64,000 nt of DNA from Defluviitaleaceae bacterium (GTDB taxonomy: Bacteria; Bacillota; Clostridia; Lachnospirales; UBA5962), in the NCBI GenBank assembly GCA_009779915.1, contig WRBA01000005.1, positions 1-64,000 of the forward strand, written 5' to 3'. Made by a program: the position numbers and the translations under genes. Position 1 is the first letter of the stretch. Each line of letters begins with the position of its first letter. Below the pieces are notes generated by a model. That model was given only the letters and a program-made list of their open reading frames with translations. It did not search any database and was not told where the DNA came from. Below, in pieces: positions 58,237 to 63,311 of the stretch.

Positions 58237-59676
58237 ATGCAATTCAAAGACTGGAACTTTGAACATACTTACACGAAGCTTCCTGAAATATTTTTCCAAA
58301 ATCAAATGCCGGCAGCTGCCCCTGCTCCGCAAATAGTTATTTTTAATCAAGGGCTTTCCCAAACTTTAGGATTAAACACAGACAAATTAAAAATTACTCC
58401 ACAAATTTTTGCAGGCAGCGAACTGCCTTATGGGGCTAAGCCCATATCCCAGGCTTATGCCGGATATCAATTCGGTCATTTTGCTATGCTTGGTGATGGC
58501 CGAGCTGTTTTACTTGGAGAACATATTGCGCCGGATAATCGCAGATTTGATATTCAATTAAAGGGATCAGGCAAAACCCCTTATTCCCGGCGAGGCGATG
58601 GGCAGGCTGCCCTCTTGCCTATGCTTAGGGAGTATATTATTAGTGAGGCAATGTTCTTTTTAGGTATTCCTACAACCCGTTCTTTGGCAGTTGCACTTAC
58701 CGGCAAAGATGTTATCAGAGAAAAAGTTTTACAAGGTGCTGTTTTAACACGAGTGGCATCAAGTCATATTAGGGTGGGTACTTTCAATTATATATCCGCT
58801 TTCGGCACACTTGAAGATCTGTGCAAACTCTCAGACTACTGCATCTGGCGTCATTTTCCTTGGCTTGAAAACTCAGATAACAAATATCTTTTGTTTTTAA
58901 GGGAAGCTGCACATCTCCAAGCATCTTTAATCGCTAAATGGCAGTTGGCTGGCTTTGTTCATGGTGTAATGAATACAGATAATATGGCAATTTCAGGTGA
59001 AACGATAGATTATGGTCCTTGTGCCTTTATGGATTTTTATAACCCTGATACAGTTTTCAGCTCAATTGATATTGAGGGACGCTACGCATATAAAAACCAG
59101 CCGCTTATAGGAGCCTGGAATTTATCCAAATTAGCTGAAGAATTATTGCCCTTAATTGATGAAAACCAGAATATGGCTGTGGAGCTGGCACAAAAGGAGA
59201 TAGATAATTATTGGAAATGCTATAACGAAAACTGGCTTGCCGGTATGCGGTCTAAATTAGGAATTGTCTGTGATGAGCCTGAAGATACCCGCCTTATTGA
59301 AGAATTATTGGATTTGATGGAAAAGAATAATTTAGATTACACAAATACCTTCCGCGCTCTGTCCTCTGCAAATAATAAAACTTCATCATTATTTGAAATA
59401 CCCGAATTTATTCTCTGGCATAAAAAATGGCAGTTCAAAATAGAAAAACAGCCACAAAGCCTAGATCATAGTATTGAAATGATGAATAAGCATAACCCTG
59501 CCGTTATTCCAAGAAATTATCGTGTGGAAGAAGCCCTAACAGCAGCGGAAAATGGTGATTTTTTAGTTATGGATAATCTCCTTCATGCTTTAAGCAAACC
59601 CTTTGAAGAGTCCGAAATTTACTCAAGTCCTCCTAAACCATCTTCTTGCAGATATAAAACATTTTGTGGTGTTTAG
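58237..59676 (+). CDS. selO: protein adenylyltransferase SelO (YdiU family)
   Basis: 479 aa pseudokinase-fold enzyme that transfers AMP to proteins, linked to redox stress in other organisms. Recognisable blocks: [66 protein letters not shown] (catalytic-loop Asn/Asp) and the metal-binding DYGPCAFMD. The C-terminus CRYKTFCGV is the usual TFCG-type end of the prokaryotic family; there is no selenocysteine. Full length. Confidence 0.93.
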
Positions 59677-59748: not shown

Positions 59749-59778
59749 TTGACAGATATTCTGCCCTAGTGATACAAT
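59749..59778 (+). promoter_or_regulatory. sigma-A promoter for the larC unit
   Basis: TTGACA (59749-59754) and TACAAT (59773-59778) with an 18-bp spacer. Expected start near 59785, giving a leader of about 178 nt before larC. Confidence 0.75.
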
Positions 59779-59784
59779 TACATT

Positions 59785-59935
59785 AATTGTGTACTATGAA
59801 GGTACACGCGCAGGAAATTTAGCCATATAGGTAATAGTCATAATTTAACAGACAAAGCAAACATAATAATGCCATGAAGGTATTTATGCGGTAAAAACTG
59901 CATATTTGACTTTTGGCATTTTTTATTTTCAAAAA
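59785..59935 (+). promoter_or_regulatory. structured larC leader ending in a terminator (candidate riboswitch or attenuator)
   Basis: The leader has a 5' hairpin GTGTAC/GTACAC (59795-59813). A linker with several short complementary segments follows. A two-part terminator then has outer arms AATGCC (59868-59873) and GGCATT (59915-59920), an inner stem ATGCGGT/ACTGCAT (59886-59903), and TTTTTTATTTT. The larC ribosome-binding site lies 10 bp further on. It does not resemble TPP, cobalamin, FMN, SAM, NiCo or manganese riboswitches as I know them. A nickel or pyridine-dinucleotide signal would suit the gene, but that is inference. Confidence 0.5.
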
Positions 59936-59962
59936 ATTTGCAATAAAGGAGTATGTACCAGT

Positions 59963-61258
59963 ATGAAAACCCTATATTTTGAATGCGGCATGGGTGCAGC
60001 CGGTGATATGCTGATGGCTGCGCTTCTGGAATTACATGATAACCCTGATGAATTTTTGAAAACCTTAAACAGCGCAGGTATCCCAGGTGTGACCGTAACA
60101 ACCTGCCCCTCTGTAAAATGCGGCATAACCGGTACACATATCACGGTTAAGGTTAATGGTCAGGAGGAACACTCTCATGACGATGCCCATAAACATCATC
60201 ATGATCACTCTCACGAACACCATCACAGCCACGAAAGCCATCATGAGCACAATCACAGTCATGAACATCATGAACATGAACACAATCATAACCATGAACA
60301 TGAACACAACGCCCATCATCATAGCAGCTACGCAAACATTGAGCACCTGATAAGCCATTTGCACATATCAGACTACGTAAAGCATAATGCCCTCGCTGTA
60401 TACAAATTGATTGCCGAGGCGGAAAGCCATGCCCATGGTGTTCCGATTACTCAAATCCACTTTCATGAGGTGGGGGAAATGGATGCGGTTGCCGACATTG
60501 TTGGTGTTTGTATGCTGATAGAGGAGTTAGCACCGGAAAAAATCCTCTCCTCGCCGATTAATGTAGGCAGTGGATATGTACGCTGCTCACATGGAGTTTT
60601 GCCAGTCCCCGCGCCGGCGACTGCTTTTATTTTGAAAAAAGTGCCTATTTACAGCGACCATATTCAAGGGGAACTATGTACCCCGACAGGTGCAGCTTTG
60701 TTGAAGCATTTCGCAAGCGAATTTCGCGGGATGCCGATGATTTCCGTAGGCAAACTCGGCTATGGCATGGGTACAAAGAATTTTGAAAAGGCAAACTGTG
60801 TGCGTGCGTTTATAGGTGAAGCAGATTATAAATGCGACGAAGTGATTGAACTGGTCTGCAATTTGGATGATATGACCCCTGAAGCCTTGGCTTTCGTACA
60901 ACAGCATTTGATGGATGATGGGGCTTTAGATGTATACATTACGCCAATCATCATGAAAAAAGGTCGGCCCGGTTTTATCCTGACCTGTATGTGCCGTGTT
61001 TCAGACCGTGAACGAATGCGCTTTTTGATTTTCAAACATACTACCACTCTCGGCATGAGGGAGTATTACACAAATAACCGCTATGCCCTGCAGAAGGAAG
61101 ATAGTATAGTCAAAACTCAGATGGGTAATGTACGTGTAAAAACTTCCCACGGCTATGGTGTGAAAAAAAGCAAACCAGAGTACGATGATATTGCGAAAAT
61201 CGCAAAAGAGCATAATATATCCATTCAAGATGTATTACAAAAATTAGAGGTGGAATAA
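59963..61258 (+). CDS. larC: LarC, nickel insertion protein for the nickel-pincer cofactor
   Basis: 431 aa from ATG 59963 (AAAGGAG 11 bp upstream); start KTLYFECGMGAAGDML is typical. LarC inserts nickel into pyridinium-3,5-bisthiocarboxylic acid mononucleotide to make the cofactor of lactate racemase and related enzymes. A linker of about 55 residues at roughly 75-130 is very rich in His, Asp, Glu and Asn and probably binds nickel. In Lactiplantibacillus plantarum LarC is made by a programmed frameshift; here both halves are in one uninterrupted frame. larA, larB and larE are not in the window. Confidence 0.92.
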   Translation: MKTLYFECGMGAAGDMLMAALLELHDNPDEFLKTLNSAGIPGVTVTTCPSVKCGITGTHITVKVNGQEEHSHDDAHKHHHDHSHEHHHSHESHHEHNHSHEHHEHEHNHNHEHEHNAHHHSSYANIEHLISHLHISDYVKHNALAVYKLIAEAESHAHGVPITQIHFHEVGEMDAVADIVGVCMLIEELAPEKILSSPINVGSGYVRCSHGVLPVPAPATAFILKKVPIYSDHIQGELCTPTGAALLKHFASEFRGMPMISVGKLGYGMGTKNFEKANCVRAFIGEADYKCDEVIELVCNLDDMTPEALAFVQQHLMDDGALDVYITPIIMKKGRPGFILTCMCRVSDRERMRFLIFKHTTTLGMREYYTNNRYALQKEDSIVKTQMGNVRVKTSHGYGVKKSKPEYDDIAKIAKEHNISIQDVLQKLEVE

Positions 61259-61260
61259 CA

Positions 61261-61824
61261 ATGAACGGTACAACAAAAAACCTTACCCTTTCCGCAATGT
61301 TTATTGCCCTTGCTATTATTTTACCATATATTGCTATGCAAAATCCGGTGATTGCACAGACAATGCTTCCGATGCATTTTCCTATTCTCCTATGTGGTCT
61401 TATATGCGGGCACAGATATGGTCTGATAGTTGGTTTTATATCCCCATTAATGCGCGGTTTTATGTTTGGGATGCCTCCTTTGTTCCCAATGGGTACTGCT
61501 ATGGCTTTTGAGCTGGCTACATACGGCTTTGTTGCCGCACTTGTTTATTATGGTCTTCGTCGGAGTGCTTCCAGCTTGGTTTCAGTGTATGCCGCATTAA
61601 TCGCCGCAATGATTGCAGGCAGGATTGTATTTGTTGCAGCGTGGATTTTATTTGTTGGGGTCATAAGAGGTGATGAAGGATTTTCGTGGTTAGCTTATGC
61701 CACTACTTTTTTCACTGTTGATGTTGTGCGTGGACTGCCCGGTATTGCTGCACAGCTTATCTTAATCCCGGTATTGGTTGTTGCGCTGCAGCGTACTGGT
61801 CTTTTAGTGTCCAATGAAGGATAG
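61261..61824 (+). CDS. ECF transporter S component-like membrane protein
   Basis: 187 aa with five to six transmembrane segments (LTLSAMFIALAIILPYIAM at the start, then MHFPILLCGLICGHRYGLIVGF). This is the general pattern of vitamin-type S components of energy-coupling factor transporters. The EcfA and EcfT parts are not near, so it would use a shared module. It starts 2 bp after the larC stop and is followed by an overlapping kinase gene. The substrate is not evident from the sequence. Confidence 0.75.
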   Translation: MNGTTKNLTLSAMFIALAIILPYIAMQNPVIAQTMLPMHFPILLCGLICGHRYGLIVGFISPLMRGFMFGMPPLFPMGTAMAFELATYGFVAALVYYGLRRSASSLVSVYAALIAAMIAGRIVFVAAWILFVGVIRGDEGFSWLAYATTFFTVDVVRGLPGIAAQLILIPVLVVALQRTGLLVSNEG

Positions 61825-62389
61825 TATGATAGAAACCATCTGCCGTGAAATTGAAAAAATCCACAGGGAAAAAGGTTATGTACTTCTCGCCATAGACGGC
61901 AGATGCGGCTCCGGCAAAACCACGCTGGCAGCGCATTTGCAAAGGATTTTCCAATGTGAAGTAATCCACATGGATCATTTTTTCCCAAGGCTTGAGCAGC
62001 GGACTGCAGAGCGCCTTAACGAACCGGGCGGTAATCTCGACCGAGAACGCTTTCTGGAGGAAGTTATTGCGCCATTGAAGAGCCGTAAGGCGTTTTCTTA
62101 CCGACGCTATGACCCCCGCATACATGAAATGGCAGAAGAGTTCCAAATACAGCCCTGTGACGTAATTATCATCGAAGGTTCGTATAGTTGCCATCCGGCT
62201 TTATTTGACAATTACGACCTGAGAGTCTTTCTGAGCGTCGATATGCCTGAGCGTTTGCGCCGGATTAAGGAGAGAAACGGCGAAGATGGCTTAAAGCAAT
62301 TCCGGGAAAAATGGATACCTATGGAGGAGTATTATTTTTCCGCATTTAATTTGGAAGATCGCTGTGATTTTGTTTTTAAGACAGGTTGA
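61814..62389 (+). CDS. P-loop kinase of the uridine kinase-like type
   Basis: 191 aa. Walker A GRCGSGKTTLA near residue 29, HMDHFF as in uridine, pantothenate and nicotinamide riboside kinases, and VIIIEGSYSCHP. It probably phosphorylates a nucleoside or vitamin. ATG 61814 overlaps the ECF gene by 11 bp; ATG 61826, 4 bp after AAGGATAGT, is an alternative. The tight larC-S component-kinase order suggests uptake and phosphorylation of a small molecule related to the nickel-pincer cofactor (inference). Confidence 0.78.
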   Translation: MKDSMIETICREIEKIHREKGYVLLAIDGRCGSGKTTLAAHLQRIFQCEVIHMDHFFPRLEQRTAERLNEPGGNLDRERFLEEVIAPLKSRKAFSYRRYDPRIHEMAEEFQIQPCDVIIIEGSYSCHPALFDNYDLRVFLSVDMPERLRRIKERNGEDGLKQFREKWIPMEEYYFSAFNLEDRCDFVFKTG

Positions 62390-62558: not shown

Positions 62559-63311
62559 ATGAACAATACTTTTTCAAATAAATTCATCGCTGATGAGAAA
62601 AATCTTGCACTATTAAAAGAAACAATGTGGGGACCCAACGCAATACGGCAAGCCGAGGAATTGTCATCACATTTTCGCATTACAAAGGATATGAAAATCC
62701 TTGATTTAGGATCTGGAATGGGCTTGTCCGCGTTGTATTTGGTGCAGCAATATGGTGCAAACGTTTTTGCCACCGATTTATTTGCTGACCCGACTGAAAA
62801 TTATGAGAGATTTCAATCCCTTGGCATTGCGGATAAAATTATTCCGATGATTCTGGACGCAACACAGCCCTTGCCTTTTGCAAAAGGTTACTTTGATGTG
62901 ATTTTTTCGGTAGGTGCATACAATATGTTTGGCGATAACGAGGAAATGCTGCCAAGGTTAATTCCTTATGTGAAAAAAGGCGGCTATATTGCCGTTGCGT
63001 TCCCCGGATTGAAATATGATTTTGGTGACAATGTTCCGCCGGAAATGCAGCCGTTCTGGGAAGTTCCTGAGGTTGCGGAAACTGTCCGTGGCACAACATG
63101 GTGGAAGGATTTATTCAACAAGGCAGAGGGCATAGAAATTGTAACCATCAGCGAAATGGCTTGTCACGACATAGCTTGGGAAGAATACCTTGCAAGCCTT
63201 GACCCCTGTGGTGAATACAAATGGGGCGAGGACAAGTGGACATTGGATATGAAAGCAGCAGAAGATGGGAAGTATTTTAATACAATTCAGTTGATTGCTA
63301 AAGTCCTCTAA
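62559..63311 (+). CDS. class I SAM-dependent methyltransferase
   Basis: 250 aa with the SAM-binding motif I LDLGSGMGLSALYL, motif II ATDLFAD and FDVIFSVGAYNMFG. Resembles small-molecule methyltransferases annotated only by fold. GGAGG 8 bp before the ATG. Flanked by repeat fragments on both sides and next to a possible mobile-element remnant, so it may be a recent arrival. Substrate unknown. Confidence 0.83.
   Translation: MNNTFSNKFIADEKNLALLKETMWGPNAIRQAEELSSHFRITKDMKILDLGSGMGLSALYLVQQYGANVFATDLFADPTENYERFQSLGIADKIIPMILDATQPLPFAKGYFDVIFSVGAYNMFGDNEEMLPRLIPYVKKGGYIAVAFPGLKYDFGDNVPPEMQPFWEVPEVAETVRGTTWWKDLFNKAEGIEIVTISEMACHDIAWEEYLASLDPCGEYKWGEDKWTLDMKAAEDGKYFNTIQLIAKVL

Follow-up and report, generated by a model that had tools for sequence, protein, structure and literature searches.

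Upstream of larC in a Defluviitaleaceae bacterium, an intrinsic terminator separates a promoter from the first gene that it would serve, which raises the question of whether this terminator is conditionally opened and, if so, by what. The stretch of DNA analyzed (the window) comprises 64,000 nt, positions 1 to 64,000 of contig WRBA01000005.1, forward strand, and belongs to the genome designated G000 here. A first-pass annotation had listed a promoter, a leader, a terminator with a T run, a ribosome-binding site, and larC, and each of these was found (Table 1). The leader is about 135 nt long, between the promoter and the terminator and ribosome-binding site, and larC starts at the ATG at 59963.

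Table 1. Features of the larC leader and operon (window positions) and of the small membrane-protein loci (locus positions)
Feature	Position	Strand	Basis or remark
Promoter TTGACA-18-TACAAT, extended TG	59749..59778	+	11/12 consensus matches; best among five sites in a 2.5-kb scan
Hairpin H1, 8 bp, loop AUGAA	59788..59808	+	Present in all minimum-energy folds computed for nascent prefixes; relatives have 5' hairpins with this loop
Variable linker H1-H2	59809..59867	+	Sequence and length vary among relatives
Hairpin H2, AAUGCC-AUGAA-GGUAUU, putative antiterminator	59868..59884	+	Computed folds; register kept in relatives; H2 covariation in relatives
Intrinsic terminator, outer stem AAUGCCA/UGGCAUU plus inner stem, T6	59868..59924	+	Stems 59868-59920, T6 59919-59924; same register in nine leaders
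Ribosome-binding site AAAGGAG	59945..59951	+	Sequence
larC, nickel insertion in pincer cofactor biosynthesis; insert rich in His	59963..61258	+	PF01969 and TIGR00299/NF052512 over cut-off
ECF transporter S component, folate-family-like	61261..61824	+	Relatives have the same leader motif
PRK/uridine-kinase-like small-molecule kinase	61814..62389	+	Accompanies the S component gene in many relatives
Methyltransferase, probable operon member	62559..63311	+	Membership inferred from position only
Pair of small, apparently membrane proteins	L359 1609-2312; L366 1607-2370; L369 1599-2347 (reverse-complemented); L272 2135-2880		Loci between motif and lar genes

The larC leader has mutually exclusive hairpins

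The leader was computed to fold at -46.2 kcal/mol (z, -2.55), and none of 200 shuffles folded equally well. The terminator reuses AAUGCC, the 5' arm of H2, so that either H2 or the terminator can form but never both. When growing prefixes of the nascent transcript were folded from an assumed start near 59785, H1 and H2 were both kept until UGGCAUU (59914-59920) emerged, after which the terminator was favored (-33.8 kcal/mol for the terminator conformer versus -29.7 kcal/mol for the H2 conformer). Mutually exclusive antiterminator and terminator hairpins, the hallmark of attenuators that act through an intrinsic terminator, were thus apparent from the shared arm, from the computed folds, and from the two terminator registers of the relatives described below.

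In a scan of 2.5 kb, promoter-like sites as a class (5 found versus 8.2 expected) and terminator-like hairpins (3 found versus 2.0 expected) were not above chance, so these scans by themselves are weak proof, and it is conservation among relatives that raises the leader above chance. Given the scans, and with selO ending 5' of the leader at 59676, the hairpin could be viewed as a plain terminator serving selO or as a chance structure with no regulatory role. We consider this most improbable, since the promoter is downstream of selO and ahead of the terminator, and the same architecture occurs far above chance before functionally related genes, a conservation that contradicts such a view. From the sequence comparisons, the window leader is very probably a conserved transcription attenuator. 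The earlier expectation that the terminator must be conditionally opened is supported by the arm shared with H2 and by the conserved attenuator plan.

The hairpin motif recurs before nickel-related and lar genes

BLASTN of the window leader against 57 relatives gave short, low-value matches only, which indicates that the element is conserved by structure and loops rather than by overall sequence. The exact pattern CCATGAAGGTAT..CTTTNTGGNATTTTT likewise matched one genome only and missed the window itself. The pairing of S component and kinase genes is widespread in the window's order, and S-component leaders were fetched from about 90 loci. A large subset of them followed a common plan: often a promoter, then a C-G-closed (A)NGAA hairpin, a variable linker, ACC-ANGAA-GGU, and a terminator. 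Promoters were seen by eye in a similar place in several relatives (e.g., L029). The motif comprises two to four C-G-closed hairpins bearing (A)NGAA loops, the last of which competes with a terminator. The spacing between H1 and H2 varies widely, from about 5 to 60 nt, and in some lar leaders the H2 loop is AAGA, AAAA, or AAAG.

Two terminator registers were distinguished, both incompatible with H2. In the first, that of the window, the terminator takes the 5' arm of H2, and nine such leaders were aligned (alignment A2). In the second, it takes the H2 loop and 3' arm, as in GATACC-AGGAA-GGTATC followed by AAGGTATC...GATACCTT-T. One leader (L149), read by eye, seems to sequester the ribosome-binding site instead.

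Enrichment was counted on 90 S-component leaders against dinucleotide shuffles. C-G-closed loops ending in GAA on stems of at least 6 bp were observed 26 times versus 0.17 expected, while the next commonest loop class reached 8 versus 1.5. The same loop class ranked top in 87 lar leaders chosen solely by LarC homology (7 versus 0.15 expected).

A covariance model built from A2 (R1) was searched against 392 genomes of the window's order. Its matches outside the training set lay 5' of S components (G032, G224, G082, G203, and G069), in larE-larB-larC leaders (G148 and G073), and in leaders of FecCD-type or NikABC-like transport operons (G041 and G095). A yjdF (azaaromatic) riboswitch (L248 88-186, minus strand) adjoins the FmdE/FecCD-type transporter locus of G095. 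On loci fetched by LarC homology, R1 matches in Proteocatella sphenisci and Peptoniphilus asaccharolyticus lay in larE leaders, and inspection revealed the motif upstream of cbiM/nikM in L065 and L083. Weak R1 matches in G004 and G314 were judged unrelated after reading.

A model of the second register (R2) was run on 80 genomes that encode the uncharacterized protein family DUF3842, considered below, and on 80 that do not. At an E value of ≤0.005, matches were found in 12 of the former and none of the latter (Fisher P = 3e-4, ignoring phylogeny). Among the best 13 R2 loci, all of which were read, 11 precede larE-larB, larC, or larB operons or a NikA/Opp-like binding protein; two R2 matches (L363 and L368) appeared unrelated on reading. 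At some of the lar loci matched by R2, a pair of small membrane proteins lies between the motif and the lar genes. Two small conserved and apparently membrane proteins (MACFLVPAAEAVITTV... and MTLLTTVFAAI...TVIWY...) were observed in this position, before larE, larB, or larC, in several operons (Table 1). Since H2 is nearly invariant in the nine A2 leaders, covariation in A2 is weak and little informative. In the R2 set, two-sided changes occurred in four of the six H2 pairs, with a score reached by none of 500 shuffles.

Taken across these sets, the motif precedes ECF S-component/kinase operons, larE-larB-larC, FecCD-type and NikA-like ABC transporters, and cbiM/nikM. The search for a conserved structure upstream of lar genes that the first-pass annotation had suggested was therefore productive: the motif stands before other larC, larE, and larB genes, and homologous leaders do have a conserved structure.

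Genes of the operon and the likely signal

The nickel cofactor gene, vitamin-type transporter, and kinase noted downstream of the leader were identified as LarC, an ECF S component, and a PRK-like kinase. The long insert of LarC, rich in His, Asp, and Glu (HHDHSHEHHHSHESHHEHNHSHEHHEHEH...; window 60150-60330) and present too in relatives L255 and L257, is likely a nickel-binding or storage segment. LarC genes about 56 to 67% identical to that of the window were observed in termite-gut metagenome-assembled genomes (MAGs; L036-L062) carrying the labels Clostridia, Fibrimonadales, Treponema, and Chitinispirillia, a spread that suggests horizontal transfer. In G000 (93.6% complete), LarC is present, LarA gave a weak sub-threshold match, and no LarE was found over the family cut-off; the pincer cofactor may be used by salvage only, or contigs may be missing. 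We speculate that the S component and kinase might salvage a pincer-cofactor nucleoside that is then completed by LarC. A NikBC/NikA-like operon under the motif is headed by a methyltransferase gene (L249 3312-3953), and the window operon likewise ends in one.

The targets (larE, larB, larC, three kinds of nickel/cobalt-type transporter, and the S component with its kinase) suggest that the signal is nickel or the nickel-pincer nucleotide. LarE and LarA each exceeded the cut-off in 7 of the 29 genomes searched, which rules them out as universal partners; because many motif genomes lack both, the regulon may involve more than the pincer cofactor.

Comparison with known RNA regulators

No Rfam family, including NiCo, guanidine-II, T-box, THF, and cobalamin, reached its gathering score in the window leader or in those of its relatives. 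Permissive thresholds were likewise negative for the leaders, the best weak match being freshwater-2 at 23 bits versus a gathering score of 49.9. The NiCo (czcD) RNAs, a known nickel riboswitch class associated with metal export, share a metal theme that includes nickel, but they are built on a junction rather than on small tandem hairpins, and the motif would control nickel uptake and cofactor synthesis, not export. T-box leaders also have a 5' stem followed by exclusive antiterminator and terminator structures before transporter or biosynthesis genes; the motif differs in repeating one hairpin and, as with NiCo, in having no Rfam match.

The first-pass annotation had proposed a new riboswitch with nickel or the pincer cofactor among its ligands. 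In such an arrangement, the (A)NGAA hairpins would themselves recognize a ligand (nickel, the pincer nucleotide, or a precursor) and set the choice between H2 and the terminator without a protein, possibly by loop-loop docking as in guanidine-II. Guanidine-II (mini-ykkC) RNAs consist of small hairpins in tandem that have identical loops and are joined by a variable linker, and the resemblance of the motif to them favors this idea, as do the common small-molecule or metal theme of the targets and the L149 leader, which looks translational, as members of riboswitch families often are. The defining tandem ACGR loops of guanidine-II were absent, however, both window hairpins having AUGAA instead, and the target genes are different. 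Nothing complex is conserved beyond the small hairpins, whose number ranges from two to four, which also argues against a riboswitch.

The dual hairpins recognized by ANTAR-domain antiterminators (eut, nasF, and amiE) are closer in logic. These targets comprise a pair of small hairpins, of which the second competes with a terminator, and their loops are 6 nt long with A first and G fourth; in eut the consensus is AGCAANGRRGCUY and the hairpins are 5 to 12 nt apart (PMC3369931). The motif has the same pair of same-loop small hairpins with a second that excludes the terminator, the eut consensus resembles its YC-ANGAA-GR, and an ANTAR protein is encoded in many of the motif genomes. Its loops, however, are AUGAA/ANGAA or NGAA, 4 to 5 nt long with G at position 2 or 3. 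Its linker is also far more variable than that of eut, its hairpins number up to four, and its targets are nickel and lar genes. Moreover, no ANTAR protein over the cut-off was found in G000 (best, 19.9 bits, in an assembly 93.6% complete) or in motif genomes G063, G091, G069, G059, G078, and G203, some of which are 94 to 96% complete. The loop rule and these carriers with no such match led us to reject canonical ANTAR regulation, and we consider a divergent ANTAR target to be very unlikely. By analogy with the ANTAR systems, the short repeated hairpins nevertheless suggest a trans-acting protein.

DUF3842 as a candidate trans-acting factor

DUF3842 (PF12953), an uncharacterized Rossmann-like protein, is often encoded adjacent to the motif, and often by the gene directly upstream. 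Each of the 17 clear motif genomes of the order encodes it, versus 89 of the 375 others (P = 8e-11, a statistic that ignores phylogeny and shared location), and G000 itself has the gene (contig C19, 262-645). In a separate collection of lar-bearing genomes, it was present in 11 of 12 with the motif versus 7 of 26 without (P = 3e-4, again ignoring phylogeny and shared location), and in six of those 12 the gene already lay within the fetched locus. Tandem AGAA hairpins were observed before the DUF3842 gene of a Treponema MAG (L083 1150-1200), suggesting autoregulation.

Tiny same-loop hairpins, the lack of a complex aptamer, and a distribution that tracks DUF3842 fit a protein-dependent antiterminator better than a riboswitch. 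The riboswitch does gain from one clear motif genome with four hairpins, the MAG L085, which is without DUF3842, but on balance we regard it as unlikely. The original proposal is supported as regards a structured regulator that is conserved, a terminator that is conditional, and target genes that point to nickel or the pincer cofactor; its assignment as a riboswitch is unproven, and direct ligand sensing by the RNA is less probable than a protein-dependent mechanism.

A protein factor probably acts on the leader, and DUF3842 is our main, though tentative, candidate for it. The frequent position of DUF3842 beside the motif means that their co-occurrence may reflect a common pathway, in which case the protein could be a pathway enzyme rather than a regulator, and many DUF3842 genomes gave no covariance-model match. 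The predicted structure (pLDDT, 83.8) is a Rossmann-like nucleotide-binding fold, similar at Z scores of about 9 to 10 to lactate, malate, and alcohol dehydrogenases, generic in character with no standout family, and it contains no known RNA-binding fold. A PDB sequence search produced nothing convincing, and no paper on DUF3842 was found in the literature searched. Such a fold could suit the sensing of a pyridinium nucleotide.

Proposed mechanism and implications

We propose that H1 folds first and then H2 and that, once the polymerase has passed about 59920, the 3' arm of the terminator would capture the 5' arm of H2 and stop transcription before larC. The (A)NGAA loops repeated in H1 and H2 would be the binding sites of a trans-acting factor, probably a protein, for which DUF3842 is the leading candidate. 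The bound factor would keep H2 closed, permitting read-through into larC and the S-component and kinase genes and probably into the methyltransferase gene, with nickel or nickel-pincer-nucleotide status as the probable signal. We lean toward this explanation as a whole, an attenuator with a trans-acting factor that is most likely DUF3842 and a nickel or pincer signal.

The tandem-hairpin attenuator of a nickel/lar regulon is apparently undescribed in Rfam and in the literature searched. It recurs among many gut bacteria, ahead of genes for nickel transport or the nickel cofactor, and is absent from Rfam, and so looks like a new system for the control of nickel use. A bolder extension, which we consider rather unlikely in its entirety, is that DUF3842 proteins form a class of Rossmann RNA-binding antiterminators that would sense a pyridinium nucleotide (the nickel pincer or its precursor) and act on (A)NGAA hairpins to govern a new, post-transcriptionally controlled nickel/pincer-cofactor regulon in anaerobes; the larC-S-component-kinase operon of the window would then import and phosphorylate a pincer-cofactor nucleoside before nickel insertion. 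The RNA element is widespread and connects lar (nickel-pincer) biosynthesis with nickel uptake of several kinds and with an orphan transporter of vitamin type and the kinase that accompanies it. It provides a first functional lead for DUF3842 and makes RNA-level sensing of nickel or the pincer cofactor a testable idea in the bacteria that carry the motif.
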